DNA from: Atopobium fossor DSM 15642
GTDB taxonomy: Bacteria; Actinomycetota; Coriobacteriia; Coriobacteriales; Atopobiaceae
Assembly: GCF_000483125.1 (NCBI RefSeq)
Contig: NZ_KI519553.1
Coordinates: forward strand, 407,124 to 471,123
Reading direction: 5' to 3'
DNA: 64,000 nt
A model generated the notes under the pieces. That model did no database searches, was not told the origin of the DNA, and saw nothing but the letters and a program-made list of their open reading frames with translations. Below are positions 18,917 through 23,607 of this stretch, piece by piece (within the stretch, counting starts at the first letter, position 1; each line of letters starts with the position of its first letter). Both the position numbers and the translations under genes were made by a program.

Positions 18917-19747
18917 TTAAAATGCAGGTAAGACATCCTTGTCGTATGTCTTACTTAAATAGGTCTTGAAATCATCGGAGGTTAGTACCTCAACAAGCGC
19001 CTTGATGCGCTCATCATCTTTGTTGGAAGGCGTTGTAACAATGTAGTTGGCATACTGTTCAACTGCTTTACCATCGGACTTTTCTACAGCTTGTGCATCT
19101 GCAACGTGAAAGCCTGCTTCAATGGCATAGTTGCCATTAATAACAGCAAAGTCAACATCCTGAAGCTGGCGAGCAACAGCTGCTGCTTCTACCTCTACAA
19201 ACTTGATGTTATGAGGGTTATCTGCCACGTCTACAGGAGTTGCTTCTAGGTTGTTGGGATCTTTGAGTGTAATAAGACCTTCCTGAGCCAGCAGCAAAAA
19301 GGCACGACCTTCGTTGGTGGGATCGTTGGGAACAGCAATCTGAGCACCATTGGCAATATTTTTAAGGTCCTTAGACTTCCCAGCAAAAATACCCATGGGT
19401 TCATAGTGAATAGCAGCAACACCTACGAGGTCTGTACCATTTTGTTTGTTGTAGTTGTTGAGATAGTTAATGTGTTGGAAGTAATTGGCATCTACCTCAC
19501 CGGAGCTAGTTACCTGATTAGGAATAATGTAATCCGTATACTCCTTAACCGTAAGCTCAATGTCTTTTTTGGCAAGCTTATCCTTGGCAAACTTGGTGAG
19601 AATTTCTGCGTGGGGAGAAGGACTTGCAGCAATGGTGAGCGTCTTGGCATTGGCACCAGCATTGGGTGTGTTACCTCCACAAGCACTCAGAGCTCCAGTG
19701 GCAATAAGGGCAGTGGCAGAGGCAATAAAGGTACGACGAGAAATCAT
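18917..19747 (-). CDS. metQ: Methionine ABC transporter substrate-binding lipoprotein
   Basis: This 276-residue lipoprotein has a signal peptide of mixed Tat/Sec look (SRRTFIASATALIATGALSAC) with a lipobox LSAC, so the mature protein starts at Cys ~23. The NlpA/MetQ family pattern follows: TIAASPSPHAEIL, DYIIPNQ, DANYFQHINYL, HYEPMGIF and VPNDPTNEGRAFLLL. It binds methionine outside the membrane and delivers it to MetI/MetN. GGAGTAAC precedes the ATG at 19747. It is the last gene of the metN-metI-metQ operon. Confidence 0.93.
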   Translation of the reverse strand: MISRRTFIASATALIATGALSACGGNTPNAGANAKTLTIAASPSPHAEILTKFAKDKLAKKDIELTVKEYTDYIIPNQVTSSGEVDANYFQHINYLNNYNKQNGTDLVGVAAIHYEPMGIFAGKSKDLKNIANGAQIAVPNDPTNEGRAFLLLAQEGLITLKDPNNLEATPVDVADNPHNIKFVEVEAAAVARQLQDVDFAVINGNYAIEAGFHVADAQAVEKSDGKAVEQYANYIVTTPSNKDDERIKALVEVLTSDDFKTYLSKTYDKDVLPAF

Positions 19748-19813
19748 GGTGTTACTCCTAAAGATATTTAAACTTTGGTCAGTTACTTACTAAATGGGTA
19801 TACACAAAAACAT

Positions 19814-20488
19814 TTACTTGCGATGATCAATTGTATTGGCAATAAAATTGCAGCTCGATTGAATGATTTGTACAAGCACAATCATCAGAACAACGGTTAC
19901 AAACATAACGTTATCTTCGTAGCGGTAATAACCGTAGCGAATGGCAATGTCACCTAGACCACCAGCACCAACTGCGCCGGCAATAGCGGTGTAGCCTAAC
20001 ACGGCAATAAGTGTGATGGAGATGCCGCGCACAATGGAGGGCAGGGCTTCGGGCAACAGGGCACTTACTACAATACGAGGAATCGATGCACCAAAGGAAA
20101 TAGCTGCTTCAACAGCAGCAGGGTCAACTTCTGCCAAACTTTGTTCAATCATGCGCGCAACAAAAGGTGTGGTGGAAAGCACGAGGGGAGGAATAACTCC
20201 CAAAACGCCAGTGGTAGTGTTAACCAAAGCGCGTGTGGCGGGCATAACGGCAACCAGCAAGATAATAAACGGAATAGAGCGTCCCATATTAATTATCCAG
20301 CCAAGTACTGCATTAAGGATGCGGTGAGGTCTGAGGCCACCTGGCGCGGTTACCGTAAGTATTACACCCAAAGCCAGACCAAGTATGTAGGCAAGAGCTG
20401 TAGAAGCAAAGAGCATAATAAGAGTATCTATGATGCCAGAGCCAATAAGTCCGGCGTAGGCTTCAAGAAATGCACTGATGTTATTCAT
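19814..20488 (-). CDS. metI: Methionine ABC transporter permease
   Basis: This 224-residue MetI-type permease has about five membrane helices. The EAA-like cytoplasmic loop (EAAISFGASIPRIVVSALLPEALPSIVRGI) contacts the ATPase. The start is ATG 20488 with GGAGGAC just upstream; a longer in-frame reading to 20542 lies inside metN and is rejected. It overlaps the end of metN by 8 nt, indicating translational coupling. Most of the length matches MetI of MetNIQ transporters. Confidence 0.92.
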   Translation of the reverse strand: MNNISAFLEAYAGLIGSGIIDTLIMLFASTALAYILGLALGVILTVTAPGGLRPHRILNAVLGWIINMGRSIPFIILLVAVMPATRALVNTTTGVLGVIPPLVLSTTPFVARMIEQSLAEVDPAAVEAAISFGASIPRIVVSALLPEALPSIVRGISITLIAVLGYTAIAGAVGAGGLGDIAIRYGYYRYEDNVMFVTVVLMIVLVQIIQSSCNFIANTIDHRK

Positions 20489-21227
20489 GCCAGTCCTCCA
20501 CACCCAACAGCTGCTTGGTAATCTCGTGTGTGGGATGAGCAAATACTTGTTCTACACTGCCTTTCTCGACAAGCTCACCGTGGCTTAAAACCGCCACATT
20601 GTTGCAAGCTTCACGAACAACGTCCATGGAGTGCGTAATGATAATAACGGTCACACCAGTTTCTTTATTGATAGTCTTGAGAAGCTCTAAGATAGAAGCA
20701 GTAGAAGCGGGATCGAGCGCACTGGTTGCCTCGTCACATAAGATGTATTCCGGATTGCAGGCAAGTGCTCGTGCAATGGCTACACGTTGCTGCTGACCAC
20801 CAGAAAGCTGAGCCGGGTAGACCTCTGCTTTTGAGGAAAGTCCAACGCGCGCAAGGAGGTTTTCTGCAATCTGCCTGTCTTGAGGACTTACGGTACCTTT
20901 GCTTGCCAAGAAGGGAAAATATACGTTGTCCAACACCGTTTTTTGGGAAAGTAAGCCAAATCCTTGAAAAATCATAGCAACACGGTGGCGGTACTCGCGC
21001 AATGCGCGCCCTTCCAGATTACAAATTTCTACACCATCTACCTCAATAGAGCCAGAGGTTGGACGCTCCAATAAATTAAGGCAACGTACTAGCGTAGACT
21101 TGCCAGCACCACTAATGCCAATAATGCCAAAGATATCCCCCTTGTTGATGTCCAAAGAAACATCCTTAAGTGCATGTACATCAGAGGCACCTTCAAAGGT
21201 TTTAACGAGGTGAGAAATACGAATCAT
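20481..21227 (-). CDS. metN: Methionine ABC transporter ATP-binding protein, short form
   Basis: This 248-residue ABC ATPase has Walker A GISGAGKST, signature LSGGQQQRVAIARAL, Walker B ILCDEATSALD and the switch H in IITHSMDV. Typical MetN proteins are about 340 residues with a C-terminal NIL/ACT-like domain that binds methionine and inhibits transport. Here the protein ends right after the ATPase fold. I chose ATG 21227 (MIRISHLVKTFEG). An in-frame GTG at 21287 would start inside the leader's hairpin and is rejected. Expression is probably controlled by the upstream leader. Confidence 0.92.
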   Translation of the reverse strand: MIRISHLVKTFEGASDVHALKDVSLDINKGDIFGIIGISGAGKSTLVRCLNLLERPTSGSIEVDGVEICNLEGRALREYRHRVAMIFQGFGLLSQKTVLDNVYFPFLASKGTVSPQDRQIAENLLARVGLSSKAEVYPAQLSGGQQQRVAIARALACNPEYILCDEATSALDPASTASILELLKTINKETGVTVIIITHSMDVVREACNNVAVLSHGELVEKGSVEQVFAHPTHEITKQLLGVEDWHE

Positions 21228-21277
21228 GTACTGAGCTGCTTTCAGAGATAGCAAGCGTGTAGAACAAACAAAAGAGC

Positions 21278-21305
21278 GTTGCTCCACACCTATGTGTGCA
21301 GCAAC
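21278..21305 (-). terminator. Terminator-like hairpin in the metN leader (attenuator)
   Basis: On the minus strand GTTGCT-G-CACAC pairs with GTGTG-G-AGCAAC: 6 + 5 bp, one mismatch, ATAG loop. CTCTTTTGTTTGTT follows. It lies 50 nt upstream of the metN start and downstream of a Met-rich leader ORF, as expected of an attenuator. The T-run is interrupted, so strength is moderate. Confidence 0.65.
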
Positions 21306-21308
21306 TTA

Positions 21309-21416
21309 TCAATAACGCCCAAACACCGAGCTTTCGCTCAAAACGATAAGGTGCTTGGGCTTAAGCATCTGCATTGGAGCAAGCATTTGGGGAGAATATG
21401 TCGTAAAAGTTTTCAT
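21309..21416 (-). CDS. Putative methionine-rich leader peptide of metNIQ
   Basis: This is a 35-codon ORF starting at ATG 21416 and ending in tandem stops TGA TAA. Codons 11, 15 and 17 are ATG, giving the run QMLAPMQML just before codons that form the 5' arm of a helix (21350-21360 with 21317-21327). No Shine-Dalgarno is present. A promoter-like TTGTGT/17 nt/TATAGT ends only 7 nt before the ATG, so the mRNA is probably leaderless. It is too short for standard gene callers. Its role as a Met-sensing attenuator is inference; an in-frame ATG at 21446 is the alternative start. Confidence 0.45.
   Translation of the reverse strand: MKTFTTYSPQMLAPMQMLKPKHLIVLSESSVFGRY
21317..21360 (-). promoter_or_regulatory. 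Nested stem in metNIQ leader overlapping the leader ORF
   Basis: GCCCAAGCACC (minus strand, 21360-21350) pairs with GGTGTTTGGGC (21327-21317) with one mismatch. A second hairpin, GAGC-GAAA-GCTC (21339-21328), lies inside. A ribosome paused on the upstream Met codons would cover or crowd the 5' arm, so this helix and the terminator at 21278 could be alternative folds. No SAM-I, SAM-IV or T-box consensus was recognised. Confidence 0.5.
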
Positions 21417-21423
21417 GGGAACT

Positions 21424-21452
21424 ACTATAGAGTGGTGGAGAAGCATACACAA
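21424..21452 (-). promoter_or_regulatory. Probable metNIQ promoter giving a leaderless leader ORF
   Basis: On the minus strand TTGTGT (21452-21447), a 17-nt spacer and TATAGT (21429-21424) sit 7 nt before ATG 21416. Seven-bp inverted arms ACTACTA (21421-21427) and TAGTAGT (21462-21468) flank this promoter and may form an operator. Confidence 0.45.
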
Positions 21453-21519
21453 CCATCAACGTAGTAGTAATTTATGCCAACAGGTTATCTGTTTTATCGA
21501 TAATAAATATAAGTATGCT

Positions 21520-21549
21520 TTGTAAACACTGATTAAACTTAGCTATAAG
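21520..21549 (+). promoter_or_regulatory. Probable thrS promoter
   Basis: TTGTAA (21520-21525), an 18-nt spacer and TATAAG (21544-21549) predict a transcript start near 21556 and a thrS leader of roughly 290 nt. This is long enough for the leader ORF and hairpins downstream. Confidence 0.45.
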
Positions 21550-21611
21550 GCTGCAAAATACCTCCCGTATGTGGTAAACCTGTATATACGCAAAAGGAAG
21601 GTTTTCTTGTT

Positions 21612-21665
21612 ATGTATTGTTACAGGCTTTGGTCTGCAAACAGCACTCAAACTCAGACTATGTAG
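21612..21665 (+). CDS. Putative threonine-rich leader peptide of thrS
   Basis: This is a 17-codon ORF reading MYCYRLWSANSTQTQTM, then TAG. Three ACT threonine codons (12, 14, 16) are bunched at the end, and the stop codon abuts the 5' arm of a 10-bp stem at 21665. AAGGAAGG (21594-21601) lies 10 nt before the ATG. This is the layout of a ribosome-mediated attenuator peptide. An overlapping frame from TTG 21607 also passes through ACA ACG...ACG ACT codons in the stem's loop, but runs through the terminator and is less likely. Function is inferred. Confidence 0.5.
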   Translation: MYCYRLWSANSTQTQTM

Positions 21666-21709
21666 GCGTCTGTCTCCTACAACGGCAACGACTGCCCTGG
21701 ACAGGCGCC
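21665..21709 (+). promoter_or_regulatory. Stem-loop following the thrS leader ORF
   Basis: GGCGTCTGTC (21665-21674) pairs with GACAGGCGCC (21700-21709), 10 bp with one G-U and a 25-nt loop. The loop segment ACGAC..CC (21688-21696) can instead pair with GGGTCGT (21731-21737) inside the downstream terminator. This gives a plausible antiterminator when the first stem is blocked. Confidence 0.5.
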
Positions 21710-21717
21710 CTATAGCT

Positions 21718-21752
21718 CGCTCTCACGCTTGGGTCGTGGTGAGCGTTTTTTT
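21718..21752 (+). terminator. Terminator/attenuator in the thrS leader
   Basis: CGCTCTCACG (21718-21727) pairs with CGTGGTGAGCG (21735-21745), about 10 bp with one bulge and a CTTGGGT loop, followed by seven T residues. It sits about 90 nt before the thrS start, so transcripts must read through it. No T-box motif or specifier loop was recognised upstream. Confidence 0.75.
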
Positions 21753-21843
21753 GTAGTGCAACATCGTCTTACGACAGTGCACAAAAGATATGTGTTCTAG
21801 GTCGTGGGTTTGAAAATAACATCGATTCAAGAAGGATATGCTC

Positions 21844-23607
21844 ATGAAAGCATTATTTAACGATGGTCATGTAGCCGAGATTAGCGAGGATGAAGAGCTT
21901 CATGTACTGCGTCATTCCGCTTCCCATATTTTGGCGATGGCAGTAAAGCGTTTATATCCCGAGGCAGATTTTGGTTATGGTCCTGCTACAGACAATGGTT
22001 TTTATTACGATATTGATTTACCAGAGGGCGTAAAAATTTCTGAGGATGATTTTCCTGCAATCGAGGCAGAGATGCGCAAGATTTGCAAGGAAAACCTCAA
22101 GTTTGAAACCTATGAGCTGCCTCGCCAAGAGGCTATTGCTCATATGCAGGAGCGCGGCGAGAAGTACAAGGTAGAACACATTGATGATTTGCCACAGGAT
22201 GCGCGCATCACTTTTTACAAGCAAGGTGAATACGTAGATATGTGCGTGGGTCCCCACATCATGTATACCAAGGCACTTAAGGCATTTAAGTTAACTGGTG
22301 TTTCTGGTGCATATTGGAAGGGCGATAAGGACAACAAGATGCTTACGCGCATTAACGGCGTAGCATTTCGCTCTAAGGAAGAGCTTGTCCAGTATGAGGA
22401 GCTTTTAGCGGAGGCCGAGAAGCGCGATCACCGTAAGATTGGTCGCGAGATGGACCTATTTATGATGTCCGAAGCTGGTCCTGGTTTCCCGTTTTGGTTG
22501 CCCAATGGTATGCGCGTGCGCAATGCTCTTATGCAGTACTGGCAGGAGATGCAAGATACATACGGCTACGAGCAGGTTCAAACGCCAATCATTCTGTCTC
22601 GCAGCCTGTGGGAAACCTCTGGTCACTGGGATCACTACAAAGACAATATGTACACCACCACCATTGATGATGAAGAGTTTGCTATCAAGCCTATGAACTG
22701 TCCTGGTGCCTGTTTGGTGTACAAGAATCGCCCTCGCAGTTACCGTGATTTACCCTTGAAGCTTGCGGAGGCTGGTCTTGATCATCGTCATGAGCTTAAG
22801 GGTGCCCTGCACGGTTTGTTCCGTGTACGTGAATTTACACAGGATGATGCTCATCTCTTTATTATGCCTGATCAAATTACCGAGCAGGTAATGGACACGG
22901 CTCATCTTATTACCACCTACTATGCTCAGTTTGGCTTCCCGTATCGCATTGAGCTTTCTACCCGTCCCGAGGACTCTATGGGCTCAGATGAGGATTGGGA
23001 GCGTGCCGAGCAGGGCTTGCGTGATGCTTTGGACTCCATGGGTGCTGAGTATATTGTAAATGAGGGCGATGGTGCCTTTTACGGCCCCAAGATTGACTTC
23101 CATCTGCAGGATTGTCTCAGCCGTACTTGGCAGTGCGGTACCATTCAGCTGGACTTCCAGCTTCCCGAGCGCTTTGAGCTTGAGTACACCGCTTCCGATG
23201 GTTCCAAGCAGCGCCCCATTATGATTCACCGTGCTGGTTTTGGTTCTTTTGAGCGCTTTATTGGTATGCTCATCGAGCAGTATGCTGGCAAGTTCCCAAC
23301 CTGGTTGTCCCCGCTACAAGTTAAGGTGCTTCCCGTTTCCGAGAAGACCCGCGAATATGCCAATGAGGTTGCCTCTAAACTCCGTGCTGCTGGTGTGCGC
23401 GTTAAGGTAGACAATCGTGACGAGAAGATTGGCTATAAAATTCGCGAAGCTCGTTCCATCGATCGCGTTCCTTATATGCTCATTTTGGGCGAGAAGGAAG
23501 TCGAGGCCGGCAATATCTCTGTTCGTGACCGCTCTAATGAAACACACCAAACGTCGGTGGAGGAGTTTGTTGCTTCTATCATTAAGGAAATTTCTGAACG
23601 TAGCTAA
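21844..23607 (+). CDS. thrS: Threonyl-tRNA synthetase lacking the N-terminal TGS domain
   Basis: ThrRS charges tRNA-Thr and edits Ser-tRNA-Thr. The 587-residue protein begins almost directly with the editing domain: HxxxH at 24/28 in LRHSASHIL and Cys ~133 in CVGPH. The class II core follows, with zinc ligands Cys ~285 (MNCPGAC), His ~315 (HRHELKG) and His ~461 (MIHRAGFGSFERF), then the anticodon-binding domain. Most bacterial ThrRS are ~640 residues with a TGS domain that is absent here. The start is ATG 21844 (GAAGGA 7 nt upstream); the in-frame ATG at 21838 touches the Shine-Dalgarno. Confidence 0.95.
   Translation: MKALFNDGHVAEISEDEELHVLRHSASHILAMAVKRLYPEADFGYGPATDNGFYYDIDLPEGVKISEDDFPAIEAEMRKICKENLKFETYELPRQEAIAHMQERGEKYKVEHIDDLPQDARITFYKQGEYVDMCVGPHIMYTKALKAFKLTGVSGAYWKGDKDNKMLTRINGVAFRSKEELVQYEELLAEAEKRDHRKIGREMDLFMMSEAGPGFPFWLPNGMRVRNALMQYWQEMQDTYGYEQVQTPIILSRSLWETSGHWDHYKDNMYTTTIDDEEFAIKPMNCPGACLVYKNRPRSYRDLPLKLAEAGLDHRHELKGALHGLFRVREFTQDDAHLFIMPDQITEQVMDTAHLITTYYAQFGFPYRIELSTRPEDSMGSDEDWERAEQGLRDALDSMGAEYIVNEGDGAFYGPKIDFHLQDCLSRTWQCGTIQLDFQLPERFELEYTASDGSKQRPIMIHRAGFGSFERFIGMLIEQYAGKFPTWLSPLQVKVLPVSEKTREYANEVASKLRAAGVRVKVDNRDEKIGYKIREARSIDRVPYMLILGEKEVEAGNISVRDRSNETHQTSVEEFVASIIKEISERS

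Follow-up and report, generated by a model that had tools for sequence, protein, structure and literature searches.

The region ahead of the threonyl-tRNA synthetase gene thrS in Atopobium fossor DSM 15642 raises the question of whether a short open reading frame (ORF) carrying threonine codons, followed by two hairpins, controls the gene, and by what means. The window analysed here is a 64,000-nucleotide stretch of contig NZ_KI519553.1 from a genome of 1.65 Mb, and the features of the leader are collected in the table. The downstream ORF, which we take to be thrS by family resemblance and homologs, is 95% identical to its counterpart in Atopobium minutum DSM 20586, and its second ATG (21844) is the thrS start in relatives. 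A preliminary description had proposed a threonine attenuator with a ribosome-binding site and a 17-codon ORF ending STQTQTM-stop with three ACT codons, which can be read directly in the sequence, and with a T7-tailed terminator upstream of thrS, which is likewise present. The 10-bp stem it placed against the stop does adjoin it, the G of the UAG stop being the opening base of the hairpin here called P1, but counts 11 pairs. A sigma-70 scan reported no promoter at the candidate -10 region; in 44 of 96 leaders the motif TGNGGTA[AG] occurs in the 150 nt that precede the leader stop, as against 6 of 96 after a single shuffle per region. The fold of the window leader taken alone is unremarkable (z = -1.66, with 11 of 200 shuffles folding at least as well), so that relatives are needed as the arbiter, and what goes beyond chance are the comparative signals: the score of a covariance model (R1), the covariation of P1, and the kept reading frame.

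Features of the thrS leader, numbered from the first nucleotide of the window
Feature	Position	Strand	Basis
Candidate -10 region, TGTGGTAAACCT	21570..21581	+	label by resemblance only
Ribosome-binding site of leader ORF, AAGGAAGG	21594..21601	+	sequence; SD match score 5
Leader ORF, 17 codons, MYCYRLWSANSTQTQTM-stop (ATG 21612, TAG 21663-21665)	21612..21665	+	sequence; reading frame tested in 96 leaders
Three Thr ACT codons at 21645, 21651 and 21657 (-6, -4 and -2 before stop)	21645..21659	+	sequence; -4 and -2 conserved
Hairpin P1, arms 21665-21675 (5') and 21699-21709 (3')	21665..21709	+	11 pairs; covariation
Intrinsic terminator, stem about 21718-21745, T7 21746-21752	21718..21752	+	terminator scan (inner part) and structure
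thrS, threonyl-tRNA synthetase, ORF from 21838	21838..23607	+	ORF and homologs; likely start 21844

Relatives were gathered in two ways. A thrS match was present in 129 genomes of the family, from which the oriented upstream regions of 110 were used; 66 of these 110 hold a Thr codon at position -2 from a stop together with a stem resembling P1 in which 9 or more of the 11 pairs form, Thr at -2 being a condition of that search and one spurious row (G033) having been removed from the 67 returned. R1, in turn, was built from 39 diverse leader cores and run on whole genomes; among 40 fetched loci, 10 were left out (nine away from thrS, and L239, which lacks a UAG). The resulting set comprises 96 leaders, 66 from the family upstream regions and 30 from R1-matched loci.

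The short ORF that these leaders carry upstream of the gene looks coding. In 79 of the 96 leaders there is an in-frame start codon (ATG or GTG, 30 codons at most) that has a Shine-Dalgarno (SD) match of 4 or more, versus 3 and 1 in the other frames, a test that covers frame and SD jointly, the other frames also being closed by stops. The ORF is conserved, lack of conservation having been part of what the preliminary description said would refute its proposal. The modal length is 14 codons, as in MQRIFAHIARTQTI. All 96 leaders end in UAG, a count to be read with the provisos that any stop was allowed for 66 of them, with pairing nonetheless counted from the third base of the stop, and that the remaining 30 were positioned by the string TAGGC. 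Two leaders of genus g14 lack an SD. In genus g8, L234 and L235 have an eight-codon ORF, MNRRTQTF, without an SD and shortly after TACACT; L307, L308 and L309 of the same genus share this layout, with a -10-like TACACT or TAGAAT ahead, and the eight-codon leaders of g8 are probably leaderless leader peptides, a divergent synthetase (ThrRS) lying downstream in those checked.

The codons near the stop fit the gene that they precede, threonine codons standing before thrS. Thr occupies position -2 in 96 of 96 leaders, by search condition in 66 of them (ACT 92, ACA 2, ACC 1, ACG 1), and position -4, which was no condition in the search for those 66, in 90 of 96 leaders and 29 of 35 distinct tails (ACG 52, ACT 27, ACC 9, ACA 2). 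The share of ACT among Thr codons, a rough figure taken from long ORFs, is 3-15% in 11 of 12 related loci, 23% in the twelfth, and 28% in the window. The most frequent ending is RTQTI, which would suit an arrest peptide, a nascent RTQTI stalling the ribosome on a ligand much as the TnaC nascent chain stalls the ribosome in response to tryptophan; positions -1, -3 and -5, however, are filled by as many as 12, 16 and 19 different codons, with Thr as the constant feature, and such a peptide is very improbable.

Hairpin P1 was assessed in an alignment (A1) of the 39 diverse cores with a 10-pair stem. Its paired columns match in 97.9% of cells, compared with 91.9% when shuffled, both sides change in 6 of the 10 pairs, and the covariation score is 0.250 versus 0.125 for shuffled alignments; none of 500 shuffles reaches the observed value of pairing or of covariation, and pairing falls to 29-52% when the partner is offset by 1 to 3 columns. 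One of five measures, that of further pair types, is not exceptional, with 56 of 500 shuffles equal or higher.

The distance from the Thr -2 codon to P1 is a constant 5 nt. Beyond the 96, five leaders have an altered stop, which reads GAG in G024, G025 and G006 and AAG in G023, while in G133 a UAA comes one codon before its usual place. ACT, the 5 nt, and P1 with 10 of 10 pairs persist in each of the five, AC at this distance having been a condition of the search; four of them had already been found by R1, and G023 by eye. As these variants retain the arrangement, the distance from Thr to P1 seems to be held more strictly than the stop codon itself. In G023, G024 and G025, of genus g14, the stop is lost and the frame continues through P1.

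The same arrangement can be followed across genomes by R1, which scores the window, itself one of the 39 model sequences, at 61.9 bits (E 4.3e-14). Matches at E <= 0.01 occur in 86 of 140 family genomes, and in 79 of these 86 a match lies directly upstream of thrS; every family genome with an E of 7e-6 or better has its match at thrS (75 of 75), and the seven matches off thrS (G005, G008, G034, G048, G070, G072 and G127) have E values of 9.5e-5 or weaker. A class sample of 396 genomes gives matches in 100, made up of 73 from the family itself, 21 from a second, Collinsella-like family and 6 others. All 21 matched genomes of the second family carry the element 68-128 nt before thrS, and among the six others the five loci retrieved, that of G270 not being one of them, have no thrS within the retrieved stretch. 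In a phylum sample of 396 genomes, 21 match at E <= 0.001, 18 of them in the two families and 3, partial and weak, elsewhere, and some second-family genomes there have no R1 match. For a third family of the order, thrS was recovered in 29 of 30 sampled genomes, and R1 at E <= 0.1 finds nothing in those 29 loci. A looser pattern returned two stem-plus-ACN matches there, 408-490 nt upstream (L280, L281), which are taken as chance, and in L299 an ORF end T-F-T-M-UGA without P1, about 283 nt before thrS, taken as chance too, though a different Thr leader is the other reading. The element is a real clade-wide regulatory leader, homologous across two families, the family labels given to the relatives (Olsenella, Atopobium, Collinsella) being inferred ones.

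The leader can also be compared with the synthetase that it precedes. The five ThrRS compared from genera g8, g10 and g15 share only 43-45% identity with the window protein, whereas their identity to four third-family proteins is 60-69%; yet these genera carry the same leader, with weak R1 scores but in place; conversely, two third-family ThrRS of the window type (81-82% identical) have no such leader upstream. The leader is thus INDEPENDENCE from the synthetase, and since the ThrRS behind it can belong to either of two distant lineages, sensor and enzyme have been recombined in evolution. This bears on autoregulation by the enzyme. In Escherichia coli, ThrRS binds a mimic of tRNA-Thr at the thrS operator, a control by protein binding that involves no leader peptide. 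That operator resembles the present leader in being an RNA element ahead of thrS, and an analogous scheme, in which P1 or the leader would imitate tRNA-Thr and be bound by ThrRS and the ORF would be incidental, draws on the conservation of P1 in sequence as well as in pairing and on the identity of the gene concerned. Against it, the ORF frame, SD and Thr codons are under constraint and one leader serves two ThrRS lineages so far apart; as the leader tracks neither lineage, sensing by the ribosome rather than by ThrRS binding is favoured, and autoregulation has little probability.

A T-box riboswitch overlooked by the scans would be a further means of sensing uncharged tRNA. The T-box of Bacillus thrS and thrZ binds tRNA directly and has no leader peptide; it shares with the present proposal the control of thrS by uncharged tRNA-Thr, and differs in that no T-box was found in this leader. 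The Rfam 15 scan of the window gave no match relevant at thrS and no T-box, the model RF00230 having no match at the gene, and a loose search of 21200-21900 returned four matches far below gathering scores, none of them a T-box. T-box-like matches do exist in these genomes, in 28 of 30 genomes at E <= 0.001, with 2 of the 30 exceeding the cut-off, but the single match in the own genome, G000:C2:54862-55134 (-), lies on another contig and scores 43.9 bits against a cut-off of 93. A T-box at thrS, which the preliminary description had named as a finding that would overturn the attenuator and had itself not seen, is largely refuted and scarcely conceivable as an explanation. The Bacillus thrS and thrZ T-box appears in the reference list of PMC2494555 and the autoregulation of E. 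coli ThrRS at the thrS operator is mentioned in PMC2965389; the parts of these two articles available show no thrS leader peptide.

A recognised terminator is not present in every leader. A hairpin followed by at least four T before thrS, as found in the window, is present in 63 of 95 leaders (L265 being left out of this count), and no recognised terminator is found in the other 32 of 95, including all those examined of g14, g17, g23, g24 and g34; by eye, some of the latter show a hairpin with a broken U-tract and others nothing, and they still keep ORF, Thr codons and P1. Since some related leaders have no recognised terminator, the output at thrS cannot be the same in every lineage. Where the terminator is present, its base retains GCUC and GGGC, and 52 of 59 distinct leader terminators have GGGC near the end, whereas among terminators elsewhere in the clade the figure is 14 of 86, a comparison of homologous, non-independent sequences whose windows differ slightly between leaders and controls. 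Directly after the U-tract, CAUG or CUUG is conserved in the leader terminators of g27, g28, g33 and others, 24 of 56 leader terminators reading GTTTTTCA and 7 reading GTTTTTCT.

Coevolution between segments was measured in 61 leaders (the 63 with a terminator less L234 and L235) by comparing each leader's own pairing with mismatched pairing. The arms of P1 (-0.95 ± 0.28 kcal/mol) and those of the terminator (-1.63 ± 0.25 kcal/mol) coevolve, and they alone do so, with no sign of antiterminator coevolution among the 61; the values for the P1 loop with the P1 3' arm (-0.53 ± 0.35), as well as -0.39 ± 0.26 and -0.35 ± 0.22 (ORF with terminator 3' arm), were not counted as signals. The antiterminator put forward in the preliminary description, 21688-21696 with 21731-21737, can be drawn in the window, but its pieces ACGAC and GUCGU are both missing from the matching stretches of the nearest relative, G002, and it was dropped as a conserved feature; what stands of that description is the kind of element, a Thr-leader attenuator of thrS, and what is not supported is this particular pairing of loop and terminator.

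Conserved complementarity across the arms is nevertheless present. Among 56 of the 61 leaders (54 distinct sequences), the P1 5' arm AGGCGYCUG complements the terminator 3' arm CGGGCGUUU at 9 positions (mean 95%), the P1 3' arm AGGCGCC complements GGCGUUU at 7 positions (94%), and GGCG complements CGCU at 4 positions (98.6%). In fixed register, AGGCGYCUG and CGGGCGUUU form 9 of 9 pairs in 31 of 59 leaders versus 2 of 86 other terminators, a contrast that is not a probability, resting as it does on one register, on related leaders and on slightly differing GGGC windows. A one-base shift of segments in the L-rows (22) affects the terminator count and the own-versus-mismatched, direct-repeat and fixed-register data, and is absent from the analysis of the 54 sequences. 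By these complementarities arm 1 resembles arm 3 and arm 2 resembles arm 4 (1 and 2 in P1, 3 and 4 in the terminator), which is what classical attenuation calls for, but they share a single GGCG/CGCC theme and may simply follow from it. A further complementarity, of CAGAC in the ORF with GUCUG in the P1 5' arm, can form in the window and many other leaders (over 5 positions, the mean for the 54 sequences being 96%), but it is missing in several genera, is flat in the own-versus-mismatched comparison (-0.13 ± 0.14), and was not adopted. Pairing between the internal loop of P1 and the SD of thrS, judged by eye only, was considered and set aside. A direct repeat of up to 13 nt, ACATATCGCTCGA, flanks P1 in the ORF and the terminator 5' arm of, for example, G094, G083 and L253; it is strong only in g33 and part of the second family, and was rejected as a general feature.

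In folding predictions P1 and the terminator coexist. Predicted pairing of P1 is 0.88-1.00 (in the 41 G-rows only), and that of the terminator, averaged over 63 leaders, is 0.97 in the presence of P1 and drops to 0.80 once the P1 5' arm is masked, which disfavours a simple thermodynamic switch; terminator probability under ribosome masks showed no consistent switch either. An alternative is that the leader ribosome acts through P1 without any terminator/antiterminator switch, the output being Rho-dependent termination, decay of the mRNA or altered accessibility of the ribosome-binding site of thrS. It would accommodate both the want of a supported antiterminator and the terminator-less leaders that keep everything upstream, the intrinsic terminators of the majority tell against it, and we consider it rather unlikely, with the qualification that it overlaps the class of ribosome-mediated control.

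The leader is probably a threonine-responsive, ribosome-mediated attenuator of thrS, a judgement drawn from comparative sequence evidence, and it probably raises synthetase output when charged threonine tRNA is scarce; that there are only two or three Thr codons counts against it. With tRNA-Thr uncharged, the leader ribosome would wait at the Thr codons, and its position would set the pairing of P1 and its neighbours so that polymerase reads into thrS; with tRNA-Thr charged, it would complete the ORF, the default hairpins would form, and transcription would stop early. A ribosome covers about 15 nt ahead of its P-site base. At Thr -4 it would accordingly end at the stop, at Thr -2 it would extend over the GGCG at the base of P1, which is nearly invariant, at the UAG it would extend over the entire P1 5' arm, and from these footprints P1 appears placed to report the position of the ribosome. 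How the report would be read can be stated tentatively at most. Under the classical strand assignment (1 and 2 the 5' and 3' arms of P1, 3 and 4 those of the terminator), stalling would free strand 2 to pair with strand 3, a possible course though not one we would expect. More doubtful is a design in which the hairpin, opening inside the stop codon, would itself read the ribosome position through the 5-nt Thr spacing, with interchangeable outputs and no classical antiterminator; those outputs would be an intrinsic terminator in most lineages and something else in the rest. Such a design would be indifferent to the ThrRS lineage that it controls, and in the five stop variants it would have outlasted the loss or shift of the stop with its Thr-to-hairpin spacing intact.

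Threonine attenuation as such has precedents. The E. coli thrL attenuator of the thr biosynthesis operon has a long run of Thr and Ile codons; it likewise uses Thr codons as the sensor, and differs in controlling biosynthesis and in having no Rfam 15 match in the window. Classical attenuators of synthetase genes resemble the present leader in having leader codons for the amino acid of the synthetase, followed by hairpins and a terminator, whereas here no antiterminator is evident, the hairpin opens inside the stop, and amino acid and clade differ. Such attenuators are described before Streptomyces trpS and leuS, with threonine among the attenuator-controlled pathways elsewhere (PMC1262725), and neither thrS nor Atopobium occurs in the text of that article. 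Closest is ThrL of Streptomyces lividans TK24, reported from RNA-seq (PMC8079986): there too a leader peptide containing Thr, with a hairpin after it, stands immediately ahead of the thrS of an actinobacterium. In the available part of that article, however, ThrL (MKRVRPFLETTPGFVPAR-stop, compared by its printed peptide only) has two Thr far from the stop, and one hairpin is described, with no U-rich stretch. A Thr leader before thrS is thus already known in S. lividans, as far as that part of the source goes, and the element of this clade differs from it in these points. In the phylum sample, which is not known to include S. lividans, R1 gave only the three partial, weak hits outside the two families. 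This clade's element was not found in the full-text literature searched, whose coverage leaves subscription papers largely outside. For Atopobium-, Olsenella- and Collinsella-like bacteria it offers a concrete candidate sensor of threonine starvation without an Rfam 15 match, it raises the question of how a ribosome on the leader could control a terminator in the absence of a visible antiterminator, and its fixed Thr-to-hairpin spacing suits dissection by point mutations.

Some observations concern single genomes. G001, of the window's genus, has no R1 match and carries instead a TGTGGTAAACC motif just before thrS (C10, around 58385), from which the leader seems to have been lost there. The records L117 (a Thermoplasmata archaeon) and L120 (Methanocorpusculum) contain ThrRS 62-63% identical to the window protein, which reflects either transfer or mis-binned contigs. 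In the window itself, divergent genes at 18917-21287 (-) share their intergenic region with the thrS leader; they resemble an ABC importer lipoprotein, permease and ATPase, presumably of the methionine type.
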